From: Apostichopus japonicus
Taxonomy: Eukaryota; Echinodermata; Holothuroidea; Aspidochirotida; Stichopodidae
NCBI RefSeq assembly: GCF_037975245.1
Contig: NC_092566.1
Location: 18,137,001-18,201,000, forward strand
Length of the DNA stretch: 64,000 bases
Direction of reading: 5' to 3'
The position numbers and the translations under genes are program-made. Below, piece by piece: positions 15,354 through 46,302 of this stretch (its first letter is position 1; each line of letters opens with the position of its first letter). A model generated the notes under the pieces. The model made no database searches and had not been told where the DNA came from. It saw only the letters and a program-made list of their open reading frames with translations.

Positions 15354-16585
15354 ATGTCGCTTCTCAAAGTTATCGCTCTGGTTCTGGCCTTTACCACTGT
15401 CACCACTCTGGGTGAGTTGGGTTTATGCAAAGATATCGCAATTTTAATATTATTTGTAATAATTATAGTCACTTTACGCAAAGTTCTTTCATATATGATC
15501 TCATAACAAGTCCTTTTTCCTCAATTTGGATCATTCTTAAAGTGCATTGTTCCATCCTCGTTACGACAATCGGATCCAATAGATAGTTTGCATGTCTTCT
15601 TGGTCTGTTATTGAAATCTTTACAAAAATCTCTGTTTTCAAGTTATGATATTGTAGTTGATCAGATTTAGCATACAACAGATTTAAGCTAACCTTAACGA
15701 TTTGCAAATTGATTTCTCAGTCTATAAAAGTAATGCAGGATATTTTATGAGCTAGAATTGTTAGTAAAATGAACAGGTTAAGTGAAAGCAAAAGCTTACA
15801 CCTGTTGGTGGTCAATTGCTACATACTATACAGGGTTGAATTCTAATCCGTCCACGGGATACCTCAGAGGCCTGCTTTAACTTTCTTTGTCACTGGTAGG
15901 TACACCACATAACGCTAAATACGAACGCTTGTGGATCGGATCCTGGTTTATAGAGCTCTCCACTGATCCAATATCAGCCGATTGAGCTTTCGTATTAAAT
16001 AACATAATTATTCCCAGCCATACGTTTCCATCCTAAGCCGTTTAATGTGAACGAAGTATTTAAAAATTTATACACCACGTGGCTCATAAGAATGTTCTAG
16101 AATTGCGATAAGCAATCATTTTTTCAAAAAGCTGTTTAATCGTAACTGTCACCTTTATGTGCAAAGAAAAGCAATTGAGAATGATATTCTTGTATACTTG
16201 TGGCAATTTGATAATATTACGATGTCTTCCTTGACTTTCAGCGTCCCCATCAAACTTGAAAGATGCCTCAGAGGCAGACTTTCTCTCGGAACTGTTTAAA
16301 CGAGATGATGGATTTGACGAGAAAGCTCTAATCCCCGAAGATCGCGGATATTGGAAGGACCTTGACAACTATGTCAAGGCACACAAGACTCGGGGTATCT
16401 CTGACGATCAAGGACTTCCGGATGCTTTAAGTGAGAGACTCGCAGAGTTGAGCTTGGATGACGACTTTGGCAGTAAAGTATTTGATATGGTTGCCAGAGA
16501 TTTAAAGATGAAGGGGCTGCAATACGAAGGCGAAGACCTACCTGACCGTTTTGAAGATTTAACTCCTTTGCAACGTCGACGTTGA
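15354..16585 (+). pseudogene. Locus A1: secreted cationic-peptide precursor, type A, apparently broken copy
   Basis: Exon 1 (15354-15411) encodes a signal peptide, MSLLKVIALVLAFTTVTTL, and ends in phase 1 at GTGAGT. Exon 2 (16242-16585) encodes the acidic propeptide, nearly identical to that of A3 (34099-35410), including RGYWKDLDNYVKAHK and EGEDLPDRFEDL. As read, the 133-residue frame closes right after the basic processing site, so no cationic tail is made. The promoter, signal exon and splice sites look intact, so it may still be transcribed. It is probably a recently inactivated copy; alternatively it makes a propeptide-only product. It shares its family with the B and C genes through IPE.R..W.DL and the EDLP..QRR region. 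Confidence 0.75.
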
Positions 16586-19328
16586 CGCTTTTCCTATAAG
16601 ATGGCGTTCCGTGTTGTCGGTAAAATTCTGCGTGCTCTCCTGCCTCTAATCATCCGTGTACTTGGTTGATATCTTTTGGCAGCTCGTCATTGATTCTCCT
16701 GATAAGAGTCGAATGGGTAGGCTAATAATCATATAATTGGTGATGGTATTATAGCTTGTAGAACTACATATCAGCATAGTAGTTGTCATGCACAATGAAA
16801 TGAAATATACTGACAAAAATTACTTGTTAATTTCTTGATTTAATTAATCTTTCGATCTCTTTACTTGAGTGTACTACAAAAACAATATTTTCAATAATTC
16901 TTTTCTGTCATTTCTTCATTCTGTAGTTTGCCGATGTAAGGAACTAATATTATAATGTCCCACCACACAACGTTAACAGTAAGACCACATAAAAATCAAA
17001 TCAGTTAATATAGGCATTTTCGCATTTTATATAACACCAGTCTTGCATTTACCTTTCCTCGCAGTCAAAACTTCAACTTCGGCTAGACGCTTTCTTTTCT
17101 TTTGTTGAACGTCCGAAACATATCATACACTAACAGTTATAAAACGTTCAAAAAACTAAAGGCGAAAACTCAACTGACTGGCTGACGTTGTAGCCAACAC
17201 AGTTGTCATATGTGTATCGATCATCTCCCTTCCTCATTATCCTCCCTTCCACCCTCCTCCCTCTGGAAATGCTCCATTCTCCCTTCGTTACATCCTTTCC
17301 AAGTCTGGTATCAAGATCAACAGATCCAATTTCGTTTTCTATTAAATATTGACCATGCATATTTTTTCTACGAACGGTCCCCACTAAGGTCGTTACCGTG
17401 TTGAGAAACATATGGAAACGATGTTTGAAAACACAAACAGGAAGGAATTGGAACCACCGCAGTTTTAAAACAGTTTATTACACACGTACCCTCCACTGAG
17501 ACAAGAAAATTCAGTCTCGGAATTTTGAAACACAGTTTAAGAATCCATACCAATGTATACTTCCAACAAGCGTAATCTGTTTACTTCATTGCTGTTTCTT
17601 GAAACCATCCAGGGACTACTTGAGAGGCACCGTTTCCACATTAATACCCTTGACACACAAATAAGCATAGGCGTGTAAACCGGGTAACTAGAGGGGAATG
17701 TTACCATACAACACCTTCGCAATGGTAGGGGGTGGTAGAATATTTTGCCCAGTCACTTCTCCACCTTTAGGGGATGTACTCTATATGGCAGTGCTAAATA
17801 ATTCAATTGGATCACTTTAGGTGGCAAAAAGGAGTGCCAGGGGATCATTTTGCTTCTCAAAAGTTCAACATGAAGTCGGAATTATGACATGAAAAAATCT
17901 ACACATTTCGATAAAACAGCGAAATGTGCACAGTTTATACACTCTACAAAATCAAAAATCTGTTCGGGACGACCCCAAACCTTATCCCTCCCCCTTCCGC
18001 CTCCCCTCACCCTCTTGTTTGATAGCCTCCAACCTACTGATTCATATGAAGAGTACCAATCACACTTCATTTGTGGTAAAGTTGTGAGAAACAATCCACA
18101 CTAGTATTATTTATAGGAATTCTGATGAGAATCTAATGATTCGTAATGCATTACTGTATCGGGTAGCTGGAAGCATATGAAGATGATCCCTGCAATTTTC
18201 TATCAGCTTATGTTCTTATATTTCTGTATACATGATAAAAGTCGTGGTTCAATGTTTCTATGTGCATGCGCGTATCCAGGAGGCGATGTAGAGTTAAACT
18301 CTCCCCCTCCCTCCTGCCCTGCGCCTTCCTCCTTCTCCCCATCTCTTTCCAATCTCAAGCAACATGTTGAAGTATCGTTATAAAACTGAGACATGGCACC
18401 ATCATGATCACATTGTCACATCAGTACCAATGTGAGGGACATGGAATTGTATATTCAACAAAAGCTAGTTAAACGTTTTCAGGTTTCTTTCATGATATAA
18501 CGATTGAATGGTGATCTTGCAGAAGGCTTATCTGTGGTACCAAATTACCAAAAACTATAAGTCTTTAGCTCTACGTCTTCATCGAAATCATTTTGACATC
18601 AGGAGTCGAGGAGCTCAAGCATGTTTCCCCTAAGCTGGCAACCGGTAGTGCTAGGTGTTAGGAAAATGTAATATAATGCATGGACGGAAGAGGTGTGGGG
18701 AGGAATGGGTGGTAGGTGAGAGTGTATGTACTTAAAGTGTACGCTCTTTTCTATCTAATATGTACAGCGTGTTCATGCTTGGAATGTATAAGTTTCCAAC
18801 GTTTTCAGTGAGAACAAAGGATTAGAAATGTCATGTATTATATCAAGAAATAATATTTCAATGTCTTTGTTTGTTTATGGATCAATAAATTGTACCGTGA
18901 TCTCATTTTGTCACTTAGCCTGTACGCAATTAAATATGTCTCTCGTTGACAGCGAAATATGATCTAAGCAGATATCCGGACAGATGGTAAAGATCAATTG
19001 ATTATTGTTCATAGAGAGGACTTCAAGGTGTAAATTATCTAGAAGGAAATGCAACGAGTTTTAGATCCACCTCTTGATAGCCAAAATCTTTATAATTACA
19101 TATTTTTGATGTACTTCAAAATCCCGGATGGATTGTGATACTACCAGTCAGTCTTCACCGGGTGTAAGTTCAAGTAGTTACCAAATTTCATCTCCTGCAA
19201 AATCATAGAAGAACTTCTTTGTATCAATTCCAGATTGGTTGTACATAAATGGAAGTTGATTTTATTTCCGAGCAAACAGTCTGGTGCAAGTCTTCCAGCA
19301 ATAAGAAATTCTGAAAGCTCCATGCAAC
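16586..19328. other. Cassette spacer 1 (A to B), no gene seen
   Basis: Non-coding spacer of about 2.7 kb, present four times (also 22982-25561, 35411-38079 and 41813-44413). Shared landmarks are a C/T-rich stretch near 17220-17290, GGTGGCAAAAAGGAGTGCCA near 17820, and CATGCGCGTATCCAGGAGGC near 18265. The upstream end of B exon 1 includes a conserved GTACATAAATGGAAGTTGAT about 85 bp before the ATG, which could be a weak TATA-like element. Open frames here are short and not conserved between copies. Confidence 0.7.
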
Positions 19329-21314
19329 ATGTTTCGATTATATTCACCGTGTATAGTCCTTCTCCTTGGTGTGTTTTGTGGTGAGTATAATCTTTCCTTT
19401 CTTTCTCTTTCCAGATTTACATGATATTTAGATTTTCCCACGAACTCATTACTGAATTAAACATTACTCACTCAACTTAATAGATCTCCTTTTCCTTTTA
19501 ACTGTTGTGAAAACAGTTGTGTTCTAACCTACTTTACGTCATTATTAATCTAGATGTTAAAGTTAAGAGCGATATCCAAGTCTAGCATCGGTGCCTTACA
19601 AGGAATAGTATACCTTACCTACTTAATTGAAGGCTAGGCTATATAATTTGTGCCTATCCTATACTACAGGTGCTTTACCTGGGATATGCGGTGTCTAACC
19701 AATAGAATATGTGCATTTACAATAGGGGTCTAATATAGGAATTGTGCCTAACCTATGTGATAACTATAGGGGTCTAACCTAAGTTATGTGGCTAACCTAT
19801 ACGATCACTAGGTACCTATAAACTAGGATATGTCCCTAAAAATGTTTCTCGTTTTAAGTAACGTCAAGGACATAGACGCAGGCTTGTCCAATTGTTCTTT
19901 TCGCGTGATTATCTCTCCGGTTGATGGTTGATCTAAGACATTTATCGCAAGTCAGAACAAGTCATAAGTCACATGATATTCAGCATTAAGACAGCGGCTC
20001 ACGGATCACAATACCAAAATAAAGTTTGTCAATTGAAGCTATGAAAGAAGTTACTGACTACGACTAGTTTATTGCCAGTGTTATCTTTTGCCTTACTCTT
20101 TAATAATATCGGGCTCTATCAAGTTTGTAAGTAAAAAGTTGTAAACTGTCTATAAATGCCACAAACTTGCAAACATGCACAATAAGTTTAAATTTCGAAA
20201 AAATCGGGAAAACGATGGTATTATTTTGCTCACCATTATTCTTTTAACTCAAGGTATGTATTTATAAACTTATTATAACTTATATATATTATATTATATA
20301 TAATATAAGTTATAGGGTATTAAAAACTAATACAATCGCTCAAAACGAATGATTGTCAAAGGATTCTCACATCATCGCAAGAGAAATAAGTGAAAAGATG
20401 CAACCAAGAATTTCATTGAAATATCTGTTATTGTTTCCTTATGTTTTGCTACATCGCCTATAACATGGTAACTAATAAATTATCAACATTACTTTGTGTA
20501 GAAATAAAATGCAGGAAGAAACGGCCTTGTAAGACAAAATGGCGCCATGTCATTATAAAATGTTACCTGTTCTCAAAGTTGGTTATTTTTGATATAGATA
20601 TAGAATTCTCAAACAGGGAGTCACTCACTAACGCGAAAAATTATATTTAGCCAGTAATAGGTAAATCGGTACATTGTTAATATGGAGTTTTGTAACACGC
20701 TAATTTTGCTTTTGGTTTAACAATGTGGATGTAGGTGAAGATAATGTTTCGTCATGTGTTTTTTTTTTTTCTTCTCTATTTTTTCCCTTCTAGTTTTAGT
20801 GTCTTCGACTTCGACAACTGTTCAACGTGATACTAAAGATGCTAGATTGGACGTCATTCCTCCAAATGGCCTAATTGAGAAATATTTCAATGAAAGAGAG
20901 AAACTGGACCAACATGAAGATCATCTTAGTCAGAGAATGAATGAACTGATCCCGGAAGAGCGTAACGTATGGAGAGACCTTTCAAAGTTAGAGAAGTACC
21001 ACAAGCTCCATTACGTCAAACGACTCCGTCCTAACGAGGAAGACTCAACAAAAGAACTTGAAGGAGCAGAGAGGTTGGCTGAACCGATTCCCGAGAAAAG
21101 CAGTCCATTACGTAACATCGATAACGAGTTAGATCTTCGAGTTGCTAACTACATCACGAATTATCTAAGATCGGAAGGACTGTCAGCAGGGGCAGAGGAC
21201 GTATTGGACAGAGATGAAGATTTGCCTGAACCACAGAGGCGATTTCTCTTTACGTTAGGGCTCCACTTACTCGGCCATGTCGTGCACCATGTTGTCCATC
21301 ACTTATTTGGATAG
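19329..21314 (+). CDS. Locus B1: precursor of a histidine-rich amphipathic peptide
   Basis: Exon 1 (19329-19380) encodes MFRLYSPCIVLLLGVFC, a short signal peptide; the donor is GTGAGT in phase 1. Exon 2 (20800-21314) starts after TTTTAG and completes Val. The 188-residue precursor has an acidic propeptide (YFNEREKLDQHEDH, IPEERNVWRDLSKLEKYHK, LDLRVANYITNYLRSEGL, EDVLDRDEDLPEPQ), then RR, then a 23-residue tail beginning FLFTLG and ending HHLFG. The tail has six His, no Lys or Arg, and His-His pairs spaced along an amphipathic helix. The last Gly directly precedes the stop, so a Phe-amide end is expected. Composition recalls tunicate clavanins, but I see no sequence proof of homology. An extra out-of-frame ATG lies 7 bases upstream. 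The role, a pH-dependent membrane-active defence peptide, is inferred. Confidence 0.82.
19600..19850. repeat. Degenerate minisatellite in B1 intron
   Basis: Loose repeats of TGCCTAACCTA / GTGTCTAACCAATAGAATATG type words. The same intron tract occurs in C1 (25830-26080) and C2 (44670-44930), and is expanded in B2 (38340-38720). Confidence 0.7.
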
Positions 21315-22684
21315 TTTCGTTCAGGCTCACAGCATTTCTAATAGTTTCCCTTTTTTCAAAGTAGCTTTATTTAATAAGTTGTAGAGCAAAATCAGATTTT
21401 CGAGTCGGTTATTTATGGTTTGTCAATCGAAGTAGGTAATATTACCGTTTATTTAAAGTTCATCACAAGTTTTCCAACCGTTTGTATTTGATCGACAATG
21501 ATATCTTAACTAGATCTGTGAAGAGCTATAACGTAACATAAGGAGCATATAATCATCATCACTATGGTGATTACAATGCATGAGTAACTGACGATGGTTT
21601 TGTTACACAGCATTGTATTCGCCTGGTTTTAGAGCACTAAATTTCTAGTATCGAGAGAAAAACAATGGAAAATGTAATTAATACTTTACCTTGTAAATTA
21701 AATATATTACAGTACACATTAGCTATATACGCCTTACCTGTTGTTCCTTGTGGTTTTAAATATAAATGGATTTCTGAGAAGACATGAACCGAAAGTTAAA
21801 TATACTCAAATTAGACAGTACTTTCCAAATGTAGCTTCAGGAGTCATTTTTGTGTTAATTGCAAACTTTCACTGTACGACACGAGTTATTACGAAATTTA
21901 AGTAATTATTTACCTTCGGATAATAACGCTTGAGTTGCCAGGACTTCCAATCTAATAAGTTTCAAGCTTGAGGGTTTCCAGAGAAGAGGTTGTAACACCT
22001 CAACACCTAGCCGCTTCGCGCCCCACCTCCGCGCCATGCCCGTACTCAAAATTCCCTATTGAGGGGACTCAAATATTAACTTATGGCCATCTCGAATGGG
22101 GGGGGGGGGTGGGAGATCTAAGGTGACTCCGGTGTCCCCTCTCGTATGCGAATTTTTTATTTAAGTAAGAGGGCTTAGATGCAAAATGATAGTGTCATTT
22201 ACATCACTTTATTTCGACTACAGTTGTATAGTACATGTTTCCAATATTATTGTGTATTAATATATTATCAGCCATCGTTTGCACCCGCAATGGTGGGAGG
22301 GCATGCCTTTTACAACACATTACTTCTGTCAACAGTATGGTTCGCAGCATACCGAACAGTCCCAATTGGCGTTCAACAAATGCAATACATAACTTTGTCT
22401 GCACATCTACCCCCAGTGTGTGGAATAACATCCCCTTTCGATTTCCACCAGTCCCATTAACTTATTAGCTTACACTTTAATGCTCATGTGCTGTTCACGT
22501 TTTGTCGATACATATAGATTTATGTCTTTCGAATGCAGAGACATTAGGCTCCGAACTTACCCCGTGTATCTCTCTCTTCTTTCAACCCGTATCGCTTCCT
22601 TCTTCTACAGTAGTCATTAACACGTTAATGTTATCAACTACTTACCTGAAAATCAAATCTGATAATATAGTAACCTCCGTGTAA
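21315..22684. other. B/C gene 3' flank, copy 1
   Basis: A non-coding flank repeated four times (also 27470-28800, 40153-41515 and 46303-47630). The shared core near 22261-22400 contains GGGAGGGCATGCCTTTTACA. A half hairpin (CCTGGTTTTAGAGCACTAAA near 21622) corresponds to one arm of the full hairpin found after the C genes. The open frames at 22179-22468 on both strands are frame shadows of this repeat and differ between copies. Confidence 0.7.
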
Positions 22685-22981
22685 AGGCACACAAAACTCG
22701 GGGTCAGTATTTCTGACGATCGGAGACCTTTGGTTGCTTTAAGTGAGAGACTCGTAGAGTTGAGCTTGGATGAAGAATTTGGTAGTAAAGTATTTGATAT
22801 GGTTGCCAGAGATTTAAAGATGAAGGGGCTGCAATACGAAGGAGAAGACCCACCTGGCCGTTTTGAAGATTTAACTCCTTTGCAACGTCGACGTTGCCAC
22901 TTTTCCTGGAGGATGGCGTTCCATATTGTCGGTAAAATTCTGCGTGCTCTCCTGCCTCTAATCATCCGTGTACTTGGTTGA
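22685..22981 (+). pseudogene. Locus A2: 5'-truncated type A precursor
   Basis: Similarity to A1/A3 begins inside exon 2 at the AHKTRG region and runs through LSLDEEFGSKVFDMVARDLK, the EGED propeptide end, RRR and a 28-residue cationic tail ending LPLIIRVLG, with Gly before the stop. The signal exon and the first 60 or so residues of the precursor are missing. Upstream DNA is instead the B/C 3' flank, so the locus begins at a recombination joint near 22680. No ATG in frame and no acceptor that would restore a secreted product were found; it is probably not functional although the peptide part is well preserved. Confidence 0.78.
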
Positions 22982-25561
22982 TATCTTTGGCAGCTCGTCA
23001 TTGATTTCTCCTGATAAGAGTCGAATGGGTAATAATCATATAGTTGGTAATGGTATTATAGGTTGTAGAACTACATATCAGTATAGTAGTTGCCATGCAC
23101 AAGGAAATGAAAGATACTGACAAAAATTACTTACTAATTTCCAAGGGGGGAGTACAAAAACAATATTTCAATAATTATTTTCTGCCATATCTTCATTCTG
23201 TGGTTTGCCACAGTAATGAACATATACTAATATATTAATGTCCCATCAACCAACGTTAACAGTAAGATAACATAACAATCAAATCAATTAATATAGGCAT
23301 TTTCACGTTTTCTTTTATTTTGTTGAACATCCGAAATATATCATAAACTTACAGTTAAAAAAATATATAAAAAAACAAAAGTCCAAAATTCAACTAAGTG
23401 ACTGGCTGACAGTGGTACGTGGTAATCAACATACAGTAGTTCTCAATTCTTTGTCGATCATCACCCTTCCTCCCTCCTCCCTCCTCCCTCCGGAAATACT
23501 TCATCTTCCATTTGTTACATCCTTTCCGAGTCTGGTATCAAGATCAACCGAAACCGATTACGTTTTCTATAGATATTGACCATATTTTTATACGAACGTC
23601 CCTACTTAAGTCGTTACCGTGTTGAAAAACATATGGAAACGATGTTTGAAAAAACAAGCAGAAAGGAATTGGAACCACCGCAGTTTTAAAACAGTTTATT
23701 ACACACGTACCCTCCACTGAGACAAGAAAATTCAGTCAGTCTCGGAATTTTGAAACACAGTTTAAGAATCCATATACAATGTATACTTCCAACAAGCGTA
23801 ATCTGTTTACTTCATTGATATTTCTTGAAACTATCCAGGGACTACTTGAGAGGCACCTTTTCCACATTAATACCCTTGACACATAAATAAGCATAGGCGT
23901 GTAACCCGGGTAACTAGAGGGGAATCTTACCATACAACACCTTCGACAGTGGTAGGGGGTGGAAAAATATTTTTGCCGCAGTCACTTCTTCACCTTTAGG
24001 GGATGTACTCTATATAGCAGTGCTAAATTATTCAGTTGGATCACTTTAGGTGGCAAAAAGGAGTGCCAGGGAATCATTTTTGATTCTCAAAAGTTCAACA
24101 TGAAGTCGGAATTATGACATGATAAAATCTACACATTTCGATAAAACAGCGAAATGTGCACAGTTTATACACTCTACAAAATCAAAAATCTGTTCGGGAC
24201 GACCACAAACCTGATCCCTCCCCCTTCCGCCTCCCCTCACCCTCTTGTTTGATAGCCTCCAACCTACTGATTCATATGGAGAGTACCAATCACACTTCCT
24301 TTGTGGTAAAGTTGTGAGAAACAATCCACACTAGTATTATTTATAGGAATTCTGATGAGAATCTGATGTTTCGTAATGCATTACTGTATCGGGTAGCTGG
24401 AAGCATATGAAGATGATCCCTGCAATTTTCTATTAGCTTATGTTCTTATATTTCTGTATACATGTTGAAAGTCGTGGTTCAATGTTTCTATGTGCATGCG
24501 CGTATCCAGGAGGCGATGTAGAGTTACAGTCTCCCCCTCCCCCTGCCCTGCGCCTCCCTCCTTCTCCCCATCTCTTTCCAATCTCAAGCAACATGTTGAA
24601 GTATCGTTATAAAACTGAGACATGGCACCATCATGATCACATTGTCACATCAGTCTCAATGATAGGGAAATGGAATGGGGATTGTATATTCAACAAAAGC
24701 TTGTTGCGGTTAAACGTTTTCATGTTTCTTTCATGATATAACGATTGAATGGCGATCTTGCAGAAGGCTTATCTGTGGTACCAAATTACCAAAGATTATA
24801 TGTCTTTAGCTCTACGTCTTAATCGAAAACAATTTTTGATATCAGGAGTGGTGGAGCTCAAGCATGTGTCCCATGAGCTGGCAATCGGTAGTGCTATGCA
24901 AGATGTAATATGACGCATGGACGGAAGGGGGGGGGGGGAAAAACGGGTGGTAGGTGAGAGTGTATGTACTTAAAGTTTACGCTATTTTCCCTCTAATATG
25001 TACAGCGTGTTCATGCTCGGATGTATAAGTTTCCAACGTTTTCAGTGAGAACAAAGGATTAGAAATTTGTATGATCAAGAAATAATATTTCACTTTCTTT
25101 GTTTGTTTATGGATCAATAAATTGTACCGTGATCTCATTTTTGCACTTAGCCTGCCACGTAATTAAATATGTCTTTCGTTGACAGTGAAACCTACTTAAG
25201 CAGACATCCGGACATATGGCAAAGATCAATTGATTATTGTTGGTAGAGAGGACTTCAAGGTGTAAATTACCTAGAAGGAAATGCAACGAGTTTAAGATAC
25301 ACCTCTTGAAAGAATAATCTTTTTAATTACATATTTTTTATATACTTCAAAATCCCGGATTGATTGTGATACGACCAGTCAGTCTTCACCGGGTGTAAGT
25401 TTAAGTTGTTACCAAATATTTCATCTCCTGCAACATAATAAATAAACTTCTTCGTATCAATTCCAGATTGTTTGTACATAAATAGAAGTTGATTCAATAT
25501 CCGAGCAAACAGTCGGGTGCAAGTCTTCCAGCAATAAGGCATTCTGAAAGCTCCTTGCAAC
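22982..25561. other. Cassette spacer 2 (A2 to C1), no gene seen
   Basis: Second copy of the A-to-B/C spacer, with a CCTCCCTCCTCCC tract near 23470 and a G run near 24927. The short minus-strand frames here (for example 23736-23933 and 24112-24324) recur with changes in other copies but show no codon-level conservation that I can see. Confidence 0.65.
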
Positions 25562-29597: not shown

Positions 29598-29618
29598 ATG
29601 ATCATTTCATGATCAATG

Positions 29619-33995: not shown

Positions 33996-34004
33996 TGATT
34001 TCCT

Positions 34005-34010: not shown

Positions 34011-34098
34011 GTGTTGCATTCTTTCGCAGTAATCATCACATCAGAAACCACCAACATTCTTATACTCGGTTGTTAAGAATATTTATCGTGGAGTCAGG

Positions 34099-35410
34099 AT
34101 GTCGCTTCTCAAAGTTATCGCTCTGGTTCTGGCCTTTACCACTGTCACCACTCTGGGTGAGTTGGGTTTGTGCAAAGATATCGCAATTTTATTATTATTT
34201 GTAATAATTATAGTCACTTTGCGCAACGTTCTTTCATATATGATCTCATAACAAGTCCTTTTTCCTCAATTTGAATTATTCTTAAAGTGCATTGTTCCAT
34301 CCTCGTTACGACAATCGGATCAATAGATAGTTTGCATGTCTTCTTGGTCTGTTATTGAAATCTTTACAAATATCTCTGTTTTCAAGTTATGATATTGTAG
34401 TTGATCAGATTTAGCATACAACAGATTAAGCTAACCTTAACGATTTGCAAATTGATTTCTCAGTCTATAAAAGTAATGCAGGATATTTTATGAGCTAGAA
34501 TTGTTAGTAAAATGAACAGGTTAAGTGAAAGCAAAAGCTTACACCTGCTGGTGGTCAATTGCTACATACTATACAGGGTTGAATTCTAATCCGTCCACGG
34601 GATACCTCAGAGGCCTGCTTTCACTTTCTTTGTCACTGGTAGGTACACCACATAACGCTATATACGAACGCTTGTGGATCGGATCCTGGTTTATAGAGCT
34701 CTCTACTGATCCAATATCTGCCGATTGAGCTTTCGTATAAATAACATAATTATTCCCAGCCATACGTTTCCATCCTAAGCCGTTTAATGTGAACGAAGTA
34801 TTTAAAAATTTATACACCACGTGGCTCATAAGAATGTTCTAGAATTGCGATAAGCAATCATTTCTTCAAAAAGCTGTTTAATCGTAACTGTCATCTTTAC
34901 GTGCAAAGAAAAGCAATTGAGAATGATATTCTTGTATACTTGTGGCAATTTGATATATTATGATGTCTTCCTTGACTTTCAGCGTCCCCATCAAACTTGA
35001 AAGATGCCTCAGAGGCAGACTTTCTCTCGGAACTGTTTAAACGAGATGATGGATTTGACGAGAAAGCTCTAATCCCCGAAGATCGCGGATATTGGAAGGA
35101 CCTTGACAACTATGTCAAGGCACACAAGACTCGGGGTATCTCTGACGATCAAGGACTTCCGGATGCTTTAAGTGAGAGACTCGCAGAGTTGAGCTTGGAT
35201 GACGACTTTGGCAGTAAAGTATTTGATATGGTTGCCAGAGACTTAAAGATGAAGGGGCTGCAATACGAAGGCGAAGACCTACCTGACCGTTTTGAAGATT
35301 TAACTCCTTTGCAACGTCGACGTTGGCGCTTTTCCTATAGGATGGCGTTCCGTATTGTCGGTAAAATTCTGCGTGCTCTCCTGCCTCTAATCATCCGTGT
35401 ACTTGGTTGA
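34099..35410 (+). CDS. Locus A3: precursor of an Arg/Lys-rich amphipathic peptide (intact type A)
   Basis: Exon 1 (34099-34156) gives signal peptide MSLLKVIALVLAFTTVTTL with donor GTGAGT in phase 1. Exon 2 (34983-35410) follows CTTTCAG. The 161-residue precursor has an acidic propeptide (LKDASEADFLSELFKRDDGF, IPEDRGYWKDLDNYVKAHK, LSLDDDFGSKVFDMVARDLK, EGEDLPDRFEDLTPLQ), a tribasic RRR, then a 28-residue tail starting WRFSYRMAFRIVGKILRALL and ending IIRVLG. The tail has five Arg and one Lys, no acidic residue, and Gly before the stop (Leu-amide predicted). It is homologous to the B and C precursors by shared intron phase, IPE.R..W.DL and QRR. A role as a host-defence peptide is inferred. This is the only type A copy that looks whole. 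Confidence 0.85.
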
Positions 35411-38079
35411 TATCTTTTGGCAGCTCGTCATTGATTCTCCTGATAAGAGTCGAATGGGTAGGCTAATAATCATATAATTGGTGATGGTATTATAGCTTGT
35501 AGAACTACATATCAGCATAGTAGTTGTCATGCACAATGAAATGAAATATACTGACAAAAATTATTCGATCTTTCGATCTCTTTACTTGAGTGTACTACAA
35601 AAACAATATTTTCAATAATTCTTTTCTGTCATTTCTTCATTCTGTGGTTTGCCGATGTAAGGAACTAATATTATAATGTCCCACCACACAACGTTAACAG
35701 TAAGACCACATAAAAATCAAATCAGTTAATATAGGCATTTTCGCATTTTTATATAACACCGGTCTTGCATTTACCTTTCCTCGCAGTCAAAACTTCAACT
35801 TCGGCTAGACGCTTTCTTTTCTTTTGTTGAACGTCCGAAACATATCATACACTAACAGTTATAAAACGTTCAAAAAACTAAAGCGAAAACTCAACTGACT
35901 GGCTGACGTTGTAGCCAACACAGTTGTCATATGTGTATCGATCATCTCCCTTCCTCGGTATCCTCCCTTCCACCCTCCTCCCTCTGGAAATACTCCATTC
36001 TACCTTCGTTACATCCTTTCCAAGTCTGGTATCAAGATCAACAGGTCCAATTTCGTTTTCTATTAAATATTGACCATGCATATTTTTCTACGAACGGTCC
36101 TTACTAAGGTCGTTACCGTGTTGAGAAACATAGGGAAACGATGTTTGAAAACACAAGCAGAAAGGAATTGGAACCACCGCAGTTTTAAAACAGTTTATTA
36201 CACACGTACCCTGCACTGAACAGGGAAATTCAGTCTCGGTATTTTGAAACACAGTTTAAGAATCCATACCAATGTATACTTTCAACAAGCGTAATCTGTT
36301 TACTTCATTGCTGTTTCTTGAAACCATCCAGGGACTACTTGAGAGGCACCTTTTCCACATTAATACCCTTGACACATAAATAAGCATAGGCGTGTAACCC
36401 GGGTAACTAGAGGGGAATCTTACCATACAACATCTTCGACAGTGGTAGGGGGTGGTAGAATATGTTGCCGCAGTCACTTCTCCACCTTTAGGGGATGTAC
36501 TCTATATGGCAGTGCTAAATAATTCAGTTGGATCACTTTAGTGGCAAAAAGGAGTGCCAGGGGATCATTTTGCTTCTCAAAAGTTCAACATAAAATCGGA
36601 ATTATGACATGAAAAAATCCACACATTTCGATAAAACAGCGAAATGTGCACAGTTTATACCCTCTACAAAATCAAAAATCTGTTGGGGACGACCCCAAAC
36701 CTTATCCCTCCCCCCCCCTTCCGCCTCCCCTCACCCTCTTGTTTGATAGCCTCCAACCTAATGATTCATATGGAGAGTACCAATCACACTTCATTTGTGG
36801 TAAAGTTGTGAGAAACAATCCACACTAGTATTATTTATAGGAATTCTGATGAGAATCTGATGATTCGTAATGTATTACTGTATCGGGTAGCTGGAAGCAT
36901 ATGAAGATGATCCCTGCAATTTTCTATCAGCTTATGTTCTTATATTTCTGTATACATGATAAAAGTCGTGGTTCAATGTTTCTATGTGCATGCGCGTAGC
37001 CAGGAGGCGATGTAGAGTTAAACTTTCCCCCAACCCCCAACCCCCTGCCCTGCGCCTACCTCCTTCTCCCCATCTCCTTCCAACCTCAAGCAACATGCTG
37101 AAGAATCGTTATAAAACTGAGACATAGCACCATCATGATCACATTGTCACATCAGTCTCAATGTAAGGGAAATGGAATGGAGATTGTATATTCAACAAAA
37201 GCTTGTTGCGGTTAAACGTTTTCATGTTTCATGCATGACATAACGGTTGAATGGCGATCTTGCAGAAGGCTTATCTGTGGTACCAAATTACCAAAGACTA
37301 TATGTCTTTAGCTCTACGTCTTAATCGAAAACAATTTTTGACATCAGGAGTGGTGGAGCTCAAGCATGTTTCCTCTAAGCTGGCAATCGGTAGTGCTTTG
37401 TGTTAGGAAGATGTAATATAACGCATGTACGGAGATGGGGAGGGAAGGCGGGGGGGGGACGGGTGGAAGGTGAGAGTGTATGTACTTAAAGTTTACGCTC
37501 TAACCCTCTAATATATACAGCATGTTCATGCTTGGATGTATAAGTTTCCAACGTTTTCAGTGACAACAAAGGATTAGAAATGTGTATTATAAAGAAATAA
37601 TATTTCACTGTCTTTGTTTGTTTATGGATCAATAAATTGTACCGTGATCTCATTTTGTCACTTAGCCTGTACGTAATTAAATGTGTCTCTCGTTGACAGT
37701 GAAAGATTAGCTAAGCAGACATCCGGACATATGGTTAAGATCAATTGATTATTGTTGGTAGAGAGGGTTTCAATGTGTAAATTATCAGTAGAAGGAAATG
37801 CAACGAGTTTAAGATCCACCGCTTGAAAGAAAAACTCTTTATAGTTACATATTTTTGATATACTTCAAAATCCCGGATTGATTGTGATACGACCAGTCAT
37901 TCTTCACCGGGTGTAAGTTCAAGTTGTTACCAAATATTTCATCTCTTGCAAAATAATGAAGGAACTTCTTCGTATCAATTCCAGATTGTTTGTACATAAA
38001 TAGAAGTTGATTTTATCTCCGAGCAAACAGTCGGGTGCAAGTCTTCCAGCATCAAGAAATTCTGAAAGCTCCATGCAAC
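35411..38079. other. Cassette spacer 3 (A3 to B2), no gene seen
   Basis: Third copy of the spacer, closest to 16586-19328. It contains the CATGCGCGTAGCCAGGAGGC and GGAGTGCCAGGGGATCATTT landmarks. No coding potential was recognised. Confidence 0.65.
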
Positions 38080-40152
38080 ATGTTTCGATTATATTCACCG
38101 TGCATAGTCCTTCTCCTTGGTGTGATTTGTGGTGAGTACACTTTTTCCTTTCTTTCTCTTTTCAGATTTACATGATATTTAGATTTTCCCACGAACTCTT
38201 TACTGATTTAACCATTACTCACTCAACTTAATAAATCTCATTTTCCTTTTAACTGTTGTGAAAGCAGTTGTGTTCTAACCTATTTTACGTCATTATTAAT
38301 CTAGATGTTAAAGTTAAGAGCGATTTCCAAATCAAGCATCGGTGCCTTACCTACCTTACCTACTGAATTGTCAACCTAGGCTATAGAATTTGTGCCTAAC
38401 ATACTATACAGGTGCCTTATCTAGGCTATATGGTGTTCATAATCAATAGAATATGTGCATTTATAACAGGTGTATAACCAATAGAATAGGTGCTTTTATG
38501 AAAGGTGTCTAACCAATAGATTAGGTGCATTTATAATAGGTGTCTAACCAATAGAATATAGGTGCATTTATAATAGGTGTCTAACCTAGGATATGTGCCT
38601 AACATATATGTGATAACTATAGGGGTCTAACCTAGGATATGTGCCTAACCTATGTGGTAACTATAGGGGTCTAACCTAAGATATGTGGCTAACCTATGCG
38701 ATCGCAAGGTACCTAAAAACCTAGGATATGTCCCTAAAATGTTTCTCGTTTCAAGTAACGTCATGGACATAGACACAGGTTTGTCCCTTTGTTCTTGTTT
38801 GCGTCATTATCTCTCTCTCTGGTTGATGGTTGATGGTTGATCAGAGCCATTTTTCACAAGTCAAATAAAGTCATATAAATCAAGTCACATTCCAGTCACA
38901 TGACATTCAGCATTAAGACAGCGGCTCACGGATCACAATACCAAAATAAAGTTTGTCAATTGAAGCTATGAAAGAAGTTACTGACTATGACTAGTTTATT
39001 GCCAGTGTTATCTCTTGCCTTACTCATTAGTAATATCGGGCTCTATTAAGTTTTTTAGTCACAAGTTGTAAACTGTATATAAATGCCACAAACTTGCAAA
39101 CGTGCACAATTAGTTTACACTTCGAAAAATTTGTGAAAACGATGGTATTTTTTTCTCTCCTTTTTTCTTTCAACTCAATAGAAAACATTACCCATTGTGT
39201 ATGCCATCGCACTATATGAGGCATGTATGTATTAAACACTAAAGCGATCGCTCAAAAACGAACGAGTGTCAAAGGATTCTCAAATCATTGCAACGAAAAT
39301 AAGTAAGAAGATGCAACCAAGAATTTCATTGAAATATCTGCTATTGTTTCCTTATGTTTCGCTACATCGCCTAAAGCTTGATAACTAATTAATAATCAAT
39401 ACCTAAAGTCACATGAAGCGCCCATGGCCTAGTTGGTTAGGGTGTCCGCATATAAAGGGGGAGGGCACGAGTACGAAATTAGGTAAATCGATACATTTTT
39501 TAATATGGAGTTTTGTGACACGCTGATTTTGCTCTTGCTCGGCTCTTGGTTCTACCAATGTGGATCCAAGTGAAGATAATGGTTCGACATATGTTTTTTT
39601 TCTCTTTCTTTTCTATTTTTTTTTAACCTTCTATTTTTAGTGTCTTCGTCTCCGACAACTGTTCAACGTGATACTAAAGATGTAAGATTGGACATTTCTC
39701 CAAATGGCCTGATTGGGAAATATTTCAATAAAAGAGAGAAACTGGACCAACATAAAGATCATCCTAGTCAGAGAATGAATGAACTGAGCCCGGAAGAGCG
39801 AAACGTATGGAGAGACCTTTCAAAGTTGGAGAAGTACCACAAGCTCCATTACGTCAAGCGACTCCGTCCTAACGAGGAAGACTCAACAAAAGAGATTGTA
39901 GGAGCAGAGAGGTTTGCTGAACCGATTCCTGAGAAAAGCAGTCCATTACGTAACATCGATAACGAGTTAGATCTTCGAGTTGCTAACTACATCACGAATT
40001 ATCTGAGATCGGAAGGACTGTCAGCAGGGGCAGAGGACGTATTGGACAGAGATGAAGATTTGCCTGAACCACAGAGGCGATTCCTCTTTAAGTTAGGGCT
40101 CCACTTACTCGGCCATGTCGTGCACCATGTTGTCCATCACTTATTTGGATAG
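38080..40152 (+). CDS. Locus B2: precursor of a histidine-rich amphipathic peptide
   Basis: Exon 1 (38080-38131) encodes MFRLYSPCIVLLLGVIC; the donor is GTGAGT in phase 1. Exon 2 (39641-40152) follows TTTTTAG. The 187-residue precursor is one residue shorter than B1 in the early propeptide (LDISPNG instead of LDVIPPNG). After EDLPEPQRR the 23-residue tail begins FLFKLG and ends HHLFG; it differs from B1 only by Lys for Thr at position 4, adding one constant positive charge to six His. Gly before the stop predicts a Phe-amide. As in B1, an out-of-frame ATG precedes the start by 7 bases. Intact signal peptide, splice sites and frame suggest function. Confidence 0.83.
38340..38720. repeat. Expanded minisatellite in B2 intron
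   Basis: Tandem copies of about 37 bp built on GTGTCTAACCAATAGAATA and GTGCATTTATAATAG, followed by shorter GTGCCTAACCTA-type units. The other three B/C introns carry shorter versions, so the expansion is specific to this copy. Confidence 0.8.
39418..39483 (+). other. tRNA-like relic in B2 intron
   Basis: The best of three versions: TGGCCTAGTTGGTTAGGG (box A), TCCGCATATAAAGGGGGA in the anticodon-arm position, and GGGCACGAGTACGAAAT (box B-like). No convincing acceptor stem. Probably a SINE head or a dead tRNA. Confidence 0.5.
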
Positions 40153-41515
40153 TTTCGTTCAGGCTCACAGCATTTCTAATAGTTTCCCTTTTTTTCAAAG
40201 TAGCTTTATTTAATAAGTTGTAGAGCAAAATCAGATTTTCGAGTCGGTTATTTATGTTTTGTCAATCGAAGTAGGTAATATTACCGTTTATTTAAAGTTC
40301 ATCACAAGTTTTCCAACCGTTTGTATTTGATCGACAATGATATCTTAACTAGATCTGTGAAGAGCTATAACGTAACATAAGGAGCATATAATCATCATCA
40401 CTATGGTGATTACAATGCATGAGTAACTGACGATGATTTTGTTACACTGCATTGTATTCGCCTGGTTTTAGAGCACTAAATTTCTAGTATCGAGAGAGAA
40501 ACAATGGAAAATGAAATTAATACTTTACCTTGTAAATTAAATATATTACAGTACACATTAGCTATATACGCCTTAAATGTTGTTCCTTGTGGTTTTAATA
40601 TAAATGGATTTCTGGGAAGACATGAACCGAAAGTTAAATATACTCAAATTAGACAGTACTTTCCAAATGTAGCTTCAGGAGTCATTTTTGTGTTAATTGC
40701 AAACTTTCAGTGTACGACACGAGTAAGTACGAAATTTAAGTCATTTTTAACCTTCGGATAATAACGCTTAAGTTGCCAGGACTTCCAATCTAATAAGTTT
40801 CAAGCTTGAGGGTTTCCAGAGAAGAGGTTTTAACATCTCAACACCTAGCCGCTCCGCGCTCCACCTCTGCGCCATGCCCGTACTCAAAATTCCATATTGA
40901 GGGGACTCAAATATTAACTTATGGCCATCTCGAATGGGGGGTGGGGGAGATCTAAGCCGACTCCGGTGTCCCCTCTCGTATGCGATTTTTTTATTTAAGT
41001 AAGAGGGCTTAGATGCAAAATGATAATGTCATTTACATCACTTTATTTCGACTACAGTTGTGTAGTACAAGTTTCCAATATTATTGTGTATTATATTATC
41101 AGCCATCGTTGGCACCCGCAATGGTGGGAGGGCATGCCTTTTACAACACATTACTTCTGTCAACAGTATGGTTCGCAGCATACCGAACAGTCCCAATTGG
41201 CGTTCCACAAATGCAATACATGACGTTGTCTGCACGTCTACCCCCAGTGTGTGGAATAACATCCCCTTTCGATTTCCACCAGTCCCATTAACTTATTAGC
41301 TTACACTTCAATGCTCATGGGTTGTTCACGTTTTGTCGATACATATAGATTGATGCCTTCCTTATCCAGAGACATAAGGCTCCGACCTTACCCCGTGCAT
41401 CTCTCTCTTCTTTCAACCCGTATTGCTTCCTTCTTCTACAGTAGTCATTAACACGTTAATGTTATCAACTACTTACCTGAAAATCAAATCTGATAATATA
41501 GTAACCTCCGTGTAA
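40153..41515. other. B/C gene 3' flank, copy 3
   Basis: Near-identical to 21315-22684, including the half hairpin, the GGGAGGGCATGCCTTTTACA core and the joint to a truncated type A locus. The open frames at 40504-40761 and 41013-41299 are not supported as genes. Confidence 0.65.
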
Positions 41516-41812
41516 AGGCACACAAAACTCGCGGTCAGTATTTCTGACGATCGGAGACCTTCGGTTGCTTTAAGAGAGAGACTCTCAGAGTTGAGCTTGG
41601 ATGACGACTTTGGTAGCAAAGTATTTGATATGGTTGCCAGAGATTTAAAGATGAAGGGGCTGCAATACGAAGGAGAAGACCTACCTGACCGTTTTGAAGA
41701 TTTAACTCCTTTGCAACGTCGACGTTGGGGCTTTTCCTGGAGGATGGCGTTCCATATTGTCGGTAAAATTCTACGTGCTCTCCTGCCTCTAACCATCCGT
41801 GTACTTGGTTGA
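41516..41812 (+). pseudogene. Locus A4: 5'-truncated type A precursor
   Basis: Block 2 counterpart of A2, with the same joint to the B/C flank near 41515 and the same missing signal exon and N-terminal propeptide. The kept part runs from LSLDDDFGSKVFDMVARDLK through RRR to a cationic tail with FSWRMAFHIVGKILRALL, ending TIRVLG. No usable start or acceptor giving a secreted product was found. A2 and A4 share the joint, so the truncation is older than the block duplication. Confidence 0.78.
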
Positions 41813-44413
41813 TATCTTTGGCAGCTCGTCATTGATTTCTCCTGATAAGAGTCGAATGGGTAATAATCATATAATTGGTGATGGTATTATAGGTTGTAGA
41901 ACTACATATCAGCATAGTAGTTGCCATGCACAATGAAATGAAAGATACTGACAAAAATTACTTACTAATTTCCAAGGGGGGAGTACAAAAACAGTATTTC
42001 AATAACTATTTTCTGCCATATCTTCATTCTGTGTTTTGCCACAGTAATGAACATGTACTAATATATTAATGTCCCATCACCCAACGTTAACAGTAAGATA
42101 ACATAACAATCAAATCAATTAATATAGGCATTTTCACGTTTTCTTTTCTTTTGTTGAACATCCGAAATATATCATAAACTTACAGTTAAAAAAAATATAA
42201 AAAAACAAAAGTCCAAAATTCAACTAAGTGACTGGCTGACAGTGGTACGTGGTAATCAACATACAGTAGTTCTCAATTGTTTGTCGATCATCTCCCTTCC
42301 TCCCTCCTCCCTCCTCCCTCCGGAAATACTTCATCCTCCCTTTGTTACATCCTTTCCGAGTCTGGTATCAAGATCAACCGAAACCGATTACGTTTTCTAT
42401 AGATATTGACCATATTTTTATACGAACGTCCCTACTTAAGTCGTTACCGTGTTGAAAAACATATGGAAACGATGTTTGAAAAAACAAGCAGAAAGGAATT
42501 GGAACCACCGCAGTTTTTAAACAGTTTATTACACACGTACCCTCCACTGAGACAAGAAAATTCAGTCAGTCTCGGAATTTTGAAACACAGTTTAAGAATC
42601 CATATACAATGTATACTTCCAACAAGCGTAATCTGTTTACTTCATTGCTGTTTCTTGAAACTATCCAGGGACTACTTGAGAGGCACCTTTTCCACATTAA
42701 TACCATTGACACATAAATAAGCATAGGCGTGTAACCCGGGTAACTAGAGGGGAATCTTCCCATACAACACCTTCGACAGTGGTAGGGGGTGGAAAAATAT
42801 TTTTGCCGCAGTCACTTATTCACCTTTAGGGGATGTACTCTATATGGCAGTGCTAAATTATTCAGTTGGATCACTTTAGGTGGCAAAAAGGAGTGCCAGG
42901 GAATCATTTTTGATTCTCAAAAGTTCAACATGAAGTCGGAATTATGACATGAAAAAATCTACACATTTCGATAAAACAGCGAAATGTGCACAGTTTATAC
43001 ACTCTACAAAATCAAAAATCTGTTGGGGACGACCCCAAACCTGATCCCTCCCCCTTCCGCCTCCCCTCACCCTCTTGTTTGATAGCCTCCAACCTACTGA
43101 TTCATATGGAGAGTACCAATCACACTTCCTTTGTGGTAAAGTTGTGAGAAACAATCCACACTAGTATTATTTATAGGAATTCTGATGAGAATCTGATGTT
43201 TCGTAATGCATTACTGTATCGGGTAGCTGGAAGCATATGAAGATGATCCCTGCAATTTTCTATCAGCTTTTGTTCTTATATTTCTGTATACATGATAAAA
43301 GTCGTGGTTCAATGTTTCTATGTGCATGCGCGTATCCAGGAGGCGATGTAGAGTTAAAGTTTCCACAACCCCCCTGCCCTGCGCCTACCTCTTTCTCCCC
43401 ACCTCTTTCCAACCTCAAGCAACATGCTGAAGTATCGTTATAAAACTGAGACAAAGCACCATCATGATCACATTGTCACATCAGTACCCATGTAAGGGAC
43501 ATGGAATTGAGATTGTTTATTCAACAAAAGCTTGTTGCGGTTGAACGGTTTCATGTTTCATGCATGACATAACGGTTGAATGGCGATCTTGCAGAAGGCT
43601 TATCTGTGGTACCAAATTACCAAAGATTATATGTCTTTAGCTCTACGTCTAAATCGAAACATTTTTGACATCAGGAGTGGTGGAGCTCAAGCATGTTTCC
43701 CCTAAACTGGCAATCGGTAGTGCTATGTTTTAGGAAGATGTAATATGACGCATGTACGAAGATGGGGCGGGGTAGGGGAGGGGGGAGGGTGCGGGTGGAA
43801 GGTAAGAGTGTATGTACTTAAAGTTTACGCTCTAACCCTCTAATATGTACAGCATGTTCATGCTTGGATGTATAAGTTTCCAACGTTTTCAGTATGAACA
43901 AAGGATTAGAAATTTATATGACCAAGAAATAATATTTCACTTTCTTTGTTTGTTTATGGATCAATAAATTGTACCGTGATCTCATTTTGTCACTTAGCCT
44001 GTCACGTAATCGAATATGTCTCTCGTTGACAGTGAAACCTTACCTAAGCAGACATCCGGACATATGGCAAAGATAAATTGATTATTGTTCATAGAGAGGA
44101 CTTCAATGTGTAAATTATGTAGAAGGAAATGCAACGAGTTTTAGATCCCTCTCTTGAAAGAAAAAATCTTTATAATTTCATATATTTGACAAACTTCAAA
44201 ATCCCGAATTGATTGTGATACGACCAGTCAGACTTCACCGGGTGTAAGTTCAAGTTGTTACTAAATATTTCATCTCCTGCAAAATAATCAAGTAACTTCT
44301 TCGTATCAATTCCAGATTATTTGTACATAAATGGAAGTTGATTTTATCTCCGGGCAAACCGTAGTCGGGTGCAAGTCTTCCAGCAAAAATAAATTCTGAA
44401 AGCTCCTTGCAAC
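41813..44413. other. Cassette spacer 4 (A4 to C2), no gene seen
   Basis: Fourth copy of the spacer, closest to 22982-25561 (same TCCCTCCTCCCTCCTCCCTC tract near 42299). No coding potential was recognised. Confidence 0.65.
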
Positions 44414-46302
44414 ATGTTTCGATTATATTCACCGTGCAGAGTCCTTCTCCTTGGTGTGATTTGTGGTGAGTTCATACTTTTTCTTTCTTTCTCTTTCCAG
44501 ATTAAAATGATACTTAGATTTTCCCACGAACTCATTAATGAGTTAAACATTACTCACTCAACTTAATAATTCTCATATTCCTTTTAACTGTTGTGAAAAC
44601 AGTTAGTTTTTCACCTATTTAACGTCATTATTAATCTAGATGTTAAAGTTAAGAGCGATATCCAAGTCTAGCATCGGTGCCTTACATGAAATAGTATACC
44701 TTACCTACTTAATTGCAGGCTAGGCTATATAATTTGTGCCTATCACATACTACAGGTGCCTTACCTAGGAGATACGGTGTCTAACCAATAGAATATGTGC
44801 ATTTAAAATAGGTGTCTAATCTAGGAATTGTGCCTAACCATATATGTGATAACTATAGGGGTCTAACCTAAGATATGTGGCTAACCTATGCGATCACTAG
44901 GTACCTAAAAACCAAGGATATGTCCCTCATATGTTTCTCGTTTCAAGTAACGTCATGGACATAGACACAGGCTTGTCCCTTTGTTCTTATTTGCGTGATT
45001 ATCTCTCTGGTTGATGGTTGATCAAAATCATTTCACAAGTCAGAACAAGTCATAAGCGGCACACGGCAGCGGCTCACGGATCACAATACCAAAAAAAAAT
45101 TTGTCAAATGAAGCTATGAAAGAAGTTACTGACGACAAGTATATTGCCAGTGTTACCTCTTGCCTTACTCATAAGTAATATCGGGCTCTTTTAAGTTTGT
45201 TAGTAAAAAGTTGTAAACTGTCTATAGATGCCAAACACTTGCAAACGTGCACAATATGTTAACACTTCGAATAATTCGTGAAAACGATGGTTTATATTAT
45301 TATTCTCACCTTTATTCTTTTAAAACAATAGAAAGCAATACCCATTGTGTATGCCATCGCAATATATGAAGCATGTATGTATTAAAAACTAAGGATCGCT
45401 GTTAAACGATAGATTGTCAAAGGAATCCAAAATCATTGCAACGAAAATAAGTAAAAAGATGCAACCAAGAATTTCATTGAAATATCCGTTATTTTTCCTT
45501 ATATTTCGCTACATCGCCTATAACATCTTAACTAATTAATAATCACTATCTATATTAAAATGAAGCCCCATGGCCTAGTTGGTAAGGGTGTCCGCTTAAA
45601 GAGGGAGGGCACGAGTACGAATTACGTAAATCGGTACATTTTTGAATATGGAGTTTTGTTACACGCTGAGTTTGCTCTTGTTCGGCTCTTGGTTCTACTA
45701 ATGTGGACTTAAGTGAAGATACTGGTTCAACGTGTGTTTTTCCTTCTTTTCTGATTTTTACCTTCTATTTTTTAGTGTCCTCGTCTCCGACAACTGTTCA
45801 ACGTGATACTAAAGATGTGAGATTGGACGAAATTCCTCCAAATGGCCTGATTGAGAAATATTTCAATAAAAGAGAGAATCTGGACCAATATGAAGATCAT
45901 CCTAGTCAGAGAATGAATGAACTGATCCCGGAAGAGCGTAACGTATGGAGAGACCTTTCAAAGTTAGAGAAATACCACAAGCTCCATTACGTCAAACGAC
46001 TCCGTCCTAACGAAGAAGACTCAACAAAAGAACTTGTAGGAGCAGAGAGGTTGGTTGAACCGATTCCTGAAAACAGCAGTCCATTACGTAACATAGATAA
46101 CGAGTTAGATCTTCGAGTTGCTAACTACATCACGAATTATCTAAGATCGGAAGGACTGTCAGCAGGAGCAGAGGACGTATTGGACAGAGATGAAGATTTG
46201 CCTGAACCACAGAGGCGATTTATCGGCAGGTTAGCGTTTCGCATACTCAGTCGAGTCCTCCGCCATCTTTTGCCATATTTGCTAAGAGTCGTATTTGGAT
46301 AG
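44414..46302 (+). CDS. Locus C2: precursor of an arginine-rich amphipathic peptide
   Basis: Exon 1 (44414-44465) encodes MFRLYSPCRVLLLGVIC; the donor is GTGAGT in phase 1. Exon 2 (45776-46302) follows TTTTTTAG. The 192-residue precursor has the C1 propeptide with few changes (LDEIPPNG, ERLVEPIPE, LDRDEDLPEPQ), RR, and a tail identical to that of C1 (27 residues, from FIGRLAFRIL to RVVFG). Signal peptide residue 9 is Arg where B1, B2 and C1 have Ile, which breaks the hydrophobic core and may weaken secretion. Otherwise it looks intact. Same inferred role as C1. Confidence 0.82.
45565..45626 (+). other. tRNA-like relic in C2 intron
   Basis: ATGGCCTAGTTGGTAAGGGT followed by GGGCACGAGTACGAATTACG; more decayed than in B2. 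Same position relative to exon 2. Confidence 0.4.

Follow-up and report, generated by a model that had tools for sequence, protein, structure and literature searches.

A tandem cluster of neuropeptide-type precursor genes in Apostichopus japonicus holds the precursor of a known myoinhibitory peptide and predicts a second, C-terminal product

GYWKDLDNYVKAHKT, the GYWK peptide, was among twenty peptides isolated in a screen of the body wall of the sea cucumber Apostichopus japonicus (PMC3432112) and inhibits muscle contraction (PMC6586643, PMC3432112). Its precursor was reported in 2019 from the circumoral nerve ring transcriptome of the adult (GenBank MF422088, PIK57833) as a protein of 161 residues with a 20-residue signal peptide and monobasic flanks around the peptide, encoded by two coding exons (PMC6586643). 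It was absent from embryo and larval transcriptomes, for which the authors give assembly quality as one possible reason (PMC9598280). As to antimicrobial peptides of sea cucumbers, a 2025 review names the holothuroidins as the only characterised ones (PMC11767717), antibacterial peptide activity has been described from eggs of Cucumaria frondosa along with a lectin-derived peptide of C. echinata (PMC3702452), and a resequencing paper reports an antimicrobial enrichment, no gene being named in the text available (PMC9843871). Here we describe a cluster of eight related loci at 15354-46302 of a 64-kb stretch of A. japonicus contig NC_092566.1 (the whole stretch analysed, hereafter the window). 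They fall into three types, A, B and C, and very probably encode secreted neuropeptide-type precursors, a reading that is well supported because type A is one by publication. We further propose that the loci probably form a two-product family, in which a mid peptide is accompanied by a second, membrane-active product from the C-terminus.

All eight loci lie on the + strand, in the order A1, B1, A2, C1, A3, B2, A4, C2. Six comprise two coding exons, of which the first encodes the signal peptide and runs to a phase-1 donor; their introns are GT-AG, of phase 1 and 826-1509 bases long. The signal exon is missing in A2 (22685-22981) and A4 (41516-41812). A tblastn search of the window with A3, B1 and C2 (E up to 1) matched exon 2 in each of the eight loci and exon 1 at two A-type and four B/C-type places, with just two minus-strand rows beyond them (E 0.44 and 0.78). 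Gene structure and tblastn thus bear out the eight loci, six signal exons and phase-1 intron noted in a first-pass annotation of this sequence. A type A exon-2 probe over the whole genome (671.6 Mb) found seven places, every one inside the window; the probe is not exhaustive, since it missed B2. Five of the eight loci (A3, B1, B2, C1, C2) are open from the signal to a Gly codon followed by a stop. The features are as follows.

15354..15411, + strand: A1 exon 1, signal peptide, phase-1 donor
16242..16585, + strand: A1 exon 2, ends at a TGA replacing the first tail codon; 133-residue product
16346..16390, + strand: A1 mid peptide GYWKDLDNYVKAHKT, flanked by R and R
16583..16585, + strand: A1 in-frame TGA at the tail start (TGG in A3)
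19329..19380, + strand: B1 exon 1
20800..21314, + strand: B1 exon 2; precursor of 188 residues
20964..21017, + strand: B1 predicted mid peptide NVWRDLSKLEKYHKLHYV, between EER and KR
21243..21311, + strand: B1 tail FLFTLGLHLLGHVVHHVVHHLF-G, histidine type
22685..22981, + strand: A2, probable pseudogene, 3′ remnant of an A gene including the tail, no signal exon
25562..25613, + strand: C1 exon 1
26943..27469, + strand: C1 exon 2; precursor of 192 residues
27107..27160, + strand: C1 predicted mid peptide
27386..27466, + strand: C1 tail FIGRLAFRILSRVLRHLLPYLLRVVF-G, arginine type
34099..34156, + strand: A3 exon 1
34983..35410, + strand: A3 exon 2; precursor of 161 residues, intact type A gene
35087..35131, + strand: A3 mid peptide GYWKDLDNYVKAHKT
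35324..35407, + strand: A3 tail WRFSYRMAFRIVGKILRALLPLIIRVL-G
38080..38131, + strand: B2 exon 1
39641..40152, + strand: B2 exon 2; precursor of 187 residues
39802..39855, + strand: B2 predicted mid peptide
40081..40149, + strand: B2 tail FLFKLGLHLLGHVVHHVVHHLF-G, histidine type
41516..41812, + strand: A4, probable pseudogene, 3′ remnant of an A gene
44414..44465, + strand: C2 exon 1
45776..46302, + strand: C2 exon 2; precursor of 192 residues
45940..45993, + strand: C2 predicted mid peptide
46219..46299, + strand: C2 tail, same sequence as the C1 tail

A1 and A3 contain GYWKDLDNYVKAHKT exactly, between single arginines (context ALIPEDR-GYWKDLDNYVKAHKT-RGI). A3 also fits the published precursor in its 161 residues, its two exons and its putative signal peptide, exon 1 ending within codon 20. 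Type A is already known: it is the GYWKDLDNYVKAHKT precursor MF422088 of PMC6586643, from the same species and matched by the exact 15-residue peptide with its flanking R, the length and the number of coding exons, that is by the described features rather than by the full record; the section of the publication devoted to it names only the mid peptide as a product. A3 shows 2 differences in 161 residues from the deposited protein P0004 (BSL78_05216), presumably the product of the gene behind MF422088/PIK57833. The first-pass annotation had proposed an undescribed host-defence family of secreted precursors, each with an amphipathic tail behind basic cleavage residues, united by the motif IPE.R..W.DL. 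The precursor layout and the single family hold. However, since GYWKDLDNYVKAHKT is exact in type A, the motif common to A, B and C covers the cleavage site and the first residues of a known peptide, and for type A 'undescribed' has to be given up. A role in host defence does not stand as it was worded: the type A precursor carries a myoinhibitory peptide, and defence is argued from composition, amphipathicity and analogy. That annotation had named beforehand a match to a non-defence secreted family as evidence against itself, and the type A GYWKDLDNYVKAHKT precursor is such a match. A tempting label is thereby corrected, the shared motif belonging to a known myoactive peptide. In place of one orphan precursor, this farmed animal has a clustered family with five intact genes, from which a new mid peptide and tails of three kinds are predicted.

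In types B and C the exact GYWKDLDNYVKAHKT is not found. They hold a homologous mid segment only and are therefore paralogues, not the same precursor. Their predicted mid peptide NVWRDLSKLEKYHKLHYV is identical in B1, B2, C1 and C2. When A3 is aligned with C2, the mid segment with LIPE.R..W.DL reaches a score of 62 and the tail a score of 68, each equalled by 0 of 5000 shuffles, whereas the N-terminal pro part is unaligned (0.48 of shuffles) and the linker barely aligned (0.04). Among 19 codons (the mid peptide plus one), 3 vary silently across the four B/C genes and 0 with a change of amino acid. The N-terminal pro part, with 48 codons, has 2 silent and 12 changing ones (Fisher p 0.015 for the difference, with small numbers and copies that are not independent). 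The two conserved islands each stand beside basic cleavage residues, which would be the pattern of a two-product precursor; we infer two products as the simplest reading.

The encoded tails are 23-28 residues long or, without the final Gly, 26-27 (A, C) and 22 (B). RR or RRR precedes the tail in 5/5 intact genes, and in all five the tail ends in Gly before the stop, an amidation signal overlooked in the first-pass annotation; the latter's RR/RRR followed by a tail of 23-28 residues applies to these five genes but not to A1. It is likely that the tail is released and amidated. The segment from the signal exon to the tail counts 114 residues in A and 147-148 in B and C, has no cysteine and carries a computed net charge at pH 7 of -2.1 (B2) to -9.8 (A). 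It corresponds to the acidic pro-region previously put at about 120-150 residues and is net negative throughout, but the label 'acidic' is weak for B2. Intact tails likewise lack cysteine. Calculated as amides without the Gly, their net charge at pH 7 is +6.9 for A3, +6.1 for C, +2.4 for B1 and +3.4 for B2. From pH 8 to pH 5.5 the charge of the B1/B2 tails rises from +0.7/+1.7 to +6.5/+7.5; that of the A3 and C tails stays within +5.5 to +7.0. Three aligned basic positions of the helix are R, K, R in A3, R, R, R in C and H, H, H in B.

Several observations weigh against a second product. Amphipathicity was taken as the hydrophobic moment at 100 degrees and compared with 20000 shuffles per tail, of which fractions of 0.014 (A3), 0.016 (C), 0.038 (B1) and 0.052 (B2) reached the moment of the tail. 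The tails of the pseudogene remnants score alike (A2 0.012, A4 0.020). The evidence for the amphipathic tails of the first-pass annotation is therefore moderate: moments lie above those of most shuffles (0.012-0.052), but the case is weakest for B, and intact and broken copies are not separated. In tail alignments B1 against C2 gives 0.006 of shuffles and B1 against A3 only 0.045; because the B tail aligns weakly with A3, we regard the tail island as secure for the pair A and C alone, and the B tail looks like a fast-changed derivative. Nor is constraint in B and C unique to the mid peptide, the variable codons of the four genes being 5 changing and 7 silent in the linker (54 codons) and a single changing one in the stretch before the tail (17 codons). 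AlphaFold models of P0004 and P0003 are poor (mean pLDDT 49 and 44) and therefore lend no structural support. A1 retains the mid peptide and has lost the tail. We came across neither transcripts nor peptides that would attest B, C or any tail, and the published mass spectrometry (MS) table of 13 nerve-ring peptides has no tail among them (PMC6586643); since GYWK is missing from it as well, the silence of this table weighs little against the tails. Between B1 and C1 the tail differs at 25/69 aligned bases; the 160 bases that follow it differ at 24/157 (p 0.0008) and the intron at 198/1301. However, the B versus C tail has a dN of 0.44 and a dS of 0.69-0.89 (a crude value from 16-17 silent sites). 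Because dS is raised along with dN, the B/C tail is an island of divergence, and positive selection is rejected as a supported reading.

We have combined these data in a model of how the precursors might work. The signal peptide would take the precursor into the regulated secretory pathway, where cuts at basic residues would free the mid peptide, the known myoinhibitory one in A and the predicted NVWRDLSKLEKYHKLHYV in B and C. A cut after RR/RRR with conversion of the Gly to an amide would free a C-terminal cationic amphipathic helix of 22-27 residues. This second product would most likely act on membranes, probably as a local antimicrobial, and the histidine-type B tail would gain charge on acidification. 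Release of the B/C mid peptide, release and amidation of the tail and any activity of the tail are predicted from the sequence, and we give somewhat less than even chances to the tail being antimicrobial in vivo. In its fullest and rather unlikely form, the model has one precursor deliver a contraction-damping neuropeptide and an amidated helix that kills by acting on membranes, and a motor signal would then be released together with a local antibiotic from nerves or body wall; the arginine tail would be active at sea-water pH and the histidine tail acid-switched, with the tandem array keeping both while recombination mixes the upstream and signal-exon parts. The cluster would allow an inexpensive check on the idea that antimicrobial cargo travels in neuropeptide precursors. 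If the tail were confirmed, a gene-encoded family would be added to the antimicrobial peptides of sea cucumbers.

The precursors could also be signalling precursors only, with the GYWK-type peptides as the product and the helix as a sorting or solubility part or a second hormone that kills nothing. This is a tentative but serious alternative. The known bioactivity sits in the mid peptide, the A transcript was detected in the nerve ring, and both the tail-less A1 and the MS table discussed above are in line with it. It does not readily explain why the tail is one of two islands conserved between A and C when most of the pro-region has drifted, and the di- or tribasic site with a terminal Gly in all five intact genes suggests a released amide; neither the conserved tail nor the Gly-amide signal, however, shows antimicrobial action. 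The converse possibility, a host-defence family in which the tail is the sole product and the pro-region an acidic mask, is favoured by the layout and by the composition of tail and pro-region, by the tail being the most divergent part between B and C, and by the resemblance of the histidine tails to the mode of action described for clavanins (PMC5198042). But the pro-region holds an isolated myoactive peptide with flanking basic sites, and its counterpart in B and C shows no amino-acid difference among four genes. We consider it quite improbable, and host defence as the sole function was dropped as the principal reading after the GYWK match.

GYWK itself might be an extraction product of a defence-type precursor with an incidental muscle action, given that it came from whole body-wall extracts and that other peptides of the same screen were suggested to derive from collagen or an enzyme (PMC3432112); its absence from the later nerve-ring MS table points the same way. 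The basic flanks in A and the conserved, basic-flanked counterpart in B and C make this improbable. The array, finally, could be an assembly artefact of uncollapsed haplotypes or a decaying cluster, its two units being ~18.8 kb apart and differing by 5% or less across A and downstream of B and C, with 3/8 copies defective. Yet a genuine tandem duplication would account for the rearranged fragment of the upstream gene with which the second unit opens, divergence reaches 15% in other stretches and 5/8 copies are intact, so that we regard an artefact or decay as very improbable. The two-product precursor remains the reading we prefer.

Among described antimicrobial systems, the clavanins, histidine-rich helical antimicrobials of tunicates, are like the B tails in being short and histidine-rich, and the computed charge of the B tails increases on acidification as low pH enhances clavanins (PMC5198042); the likeness is one of composition and charge, with no claim of sequence homology. 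The holothuroidins of Holothuria tubulosa are also short histidine-containing sea-cucumber peptides, but they have 12-14 residues and the sequences given show no amide (PMC3702452, PMC6471310). The B1 tail compares with holothuroidin H2 at 0.025 of shuffles, a weak result from one of four tail comparisons. Sea urchin centrocins and strongylocins share the order of signal, pro-region and cationic product, and the mature centrocin chains vary more than the pre-pro part (PMC4805251). Their pro-regions are 30 and 16 residues long as against 114-148 here, and their products are a disulphide-linked dimer or cysteine-rich (PMC4805251); with intact tails free of cysteine, as opposed to disulphide-linked or six-cysteine mature peptides, assignment to this group was excluded. 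In nicomicins and arenicins a long acidic pro-region likewise precedes a C-terminal cationic peptide, and the BRICHOS domain of such precursors is defined with two conserved cysteines (PMC6265681). A BRICHOS antimicrobial precursor was excluded, the sea-cucumber precursors having neither a BRICHOS match nor cysteines in the pro-region. Hydra offers a precedent for neuropeptides with antibacterial action in NDA-1, Hym-357 and Hym-370, two of which came out of a search for myoactive peptides; NDA-1 is a cysteine-rich peptide of 71 residues, and the source as available describes no mid peptide and helical tail in one precursor (PMC5614986).

Cathelicidin precursors have a cathelin-like domain with conserved cysteines. 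A cathelicidin was excluded, as the pro-region has no cysteine and A3, B1 and C2 gave no Pfam match above the cut-off (one sub-threshold row, for B1). B1 had no match among Protein Data Bank (PDB) sequences, and P0004, P0003 and P0002 matched no family of NCBIfam, a prokaryote library. The first-pass annotation had suggested a propeptide search across other animal groups. Protein-database searches over ~5.8 billion sequences (E ≤ 10; a profile of six sequences served as query in one of them) yielded five different proteins, 5/5 labelled A. japonicus and none from other groups among the matches, in databases that may not include other sea-cucumber proteomes. The relatives of B and C are deposited solely as hypothetical or uncharacterised proteins. 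In open-licence PMC papers, three tail fragments and three old locus tags had no mention, whereas the GYWK string occurs in 3 papers; among the papers listed we found no report of B, C, the tandem cluster or the conserved tail, the B/C mid-peptide string lying outside that search. The tail, the B/C paralogues and the clustering go unmentioned in the sections of PMC6586643 covered here; its figure 6 may mark the tail.

Of the copies that are not fully open, A1 is open through RRR, encodes the mid peptide and then has TGA where A3 has TGG; because this in-frame TGA (16583-16585) replaces TGG, no tail is encoded. Its 133-residue product is identical to the deposited A. japonicus protein P0005, and over 133 codons A1 and A3 differ by 1 silent and 0 amino-acid changes. 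A1 is possibly a tail-less signalling precursor, or simply a young pseudogene. A2 and A4 have neither signal exon nor mid peptide, and a stop stands directly before the remnant. Over 87 codons pN and pS are 0.077 and 0.076 for A2 versus A3, 0.060 and 0.100 for A4 versus A3, and 0.060 and 0.033 for A2 versus A4. With the stop and no clear constraint in these values, we read A2 and A4 as pseudogenes. The 187-residue B2 protein is identical, letter for letter, to the deposited A. japonicus protein P0003. Just 5′ of exon 2 each B/C gene has a second signal-like ATG (MEFC.TL.LLL..., at 20682, 26808, 39505 and 45648). The older protein model P0002 (BSL78_18686) starts with MEFC.TL.LLL, and the frames in the window hit a stop within ~25 codons; this start is possibly a relic or an alternative first exon.

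The second four genes repeat the first four ~18.8 kb downstream, in two tandem units:

10178..29597, no strand assigned: first tandem unit, its start lying inside the upstream gene
29619..48394, no strand assigned: second tandem unit, unevenly diverged from the first

At the junction, 29619-29683 matches 10178-10242 and the sequence from 29676 onward matches that from 11093 onward, so that 10243-11092 is missing from the second unit. Each unit contains an older duplication, of the stretch from after A to B and that from after A2 to C (17087-20486 versus 23305-26713, 89% identical). In 500-base bins the units differ by no more than 5% across A and downstream of B and C. The difference rises to 8-15% in a stretch of B and of C that begins ~800-1100 bases 5′ of exon 1 and ends near the start of exon 2 (high-divergence spans 18500-21000 and 24500-27000 in the first unit). 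The units are also 3-10% apart before A (11.0-15.0 kb), and uneven divergence is therefore not confined to the B and C genes. We counted the sites informative for the groupings B1B2/C1C2, B1C1/B2C2 and B1C2/B2C1. No pairing is favoured in the 1500-base 5′ flank (13, 16 and 8 sites) or the intron (16, 17 and 9), the pro-region favours the first (7, 0 and 1), and the tail (23/23) and the 1000-base 3′ flank (137/137) group B1B2/C1C2 throughout. Pooled support for this grouping is 29/79 for the 5′ flank and intron as against 167/168 for the pro-region, tail and 3′ flank, the switch setting in close to the beginning of exon 2. Pro-region and tail therefore have a history different from that of the signal exon, the intron and the upstream region, and the two tail types are kept apart in both units while the upstream parts are mixed. 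Our explanation for the mixed upstream histories would be exchange between copies.

The upstream multi-exon gene lies at 2034-11246, and a copy of its 3′ part, interrupted by an internal gap, is found at 29619-30483. The gene appears to resemble calcium-activated chloride channel regulators (CLCA); those of its exons that were searched singly gave no Pfam match above the cut-off. A dispersed repeat is present at 6905-7271, 29976-30392 and 60683-61050, the latter two copies being ~87-89% identical to the first and that at 29976-30392 falling between the two gene groups. Downstream of the cluster, 48838-50193 is a tandem array with a 228-base unit, which can also be called as three copies of a 456-base unit.

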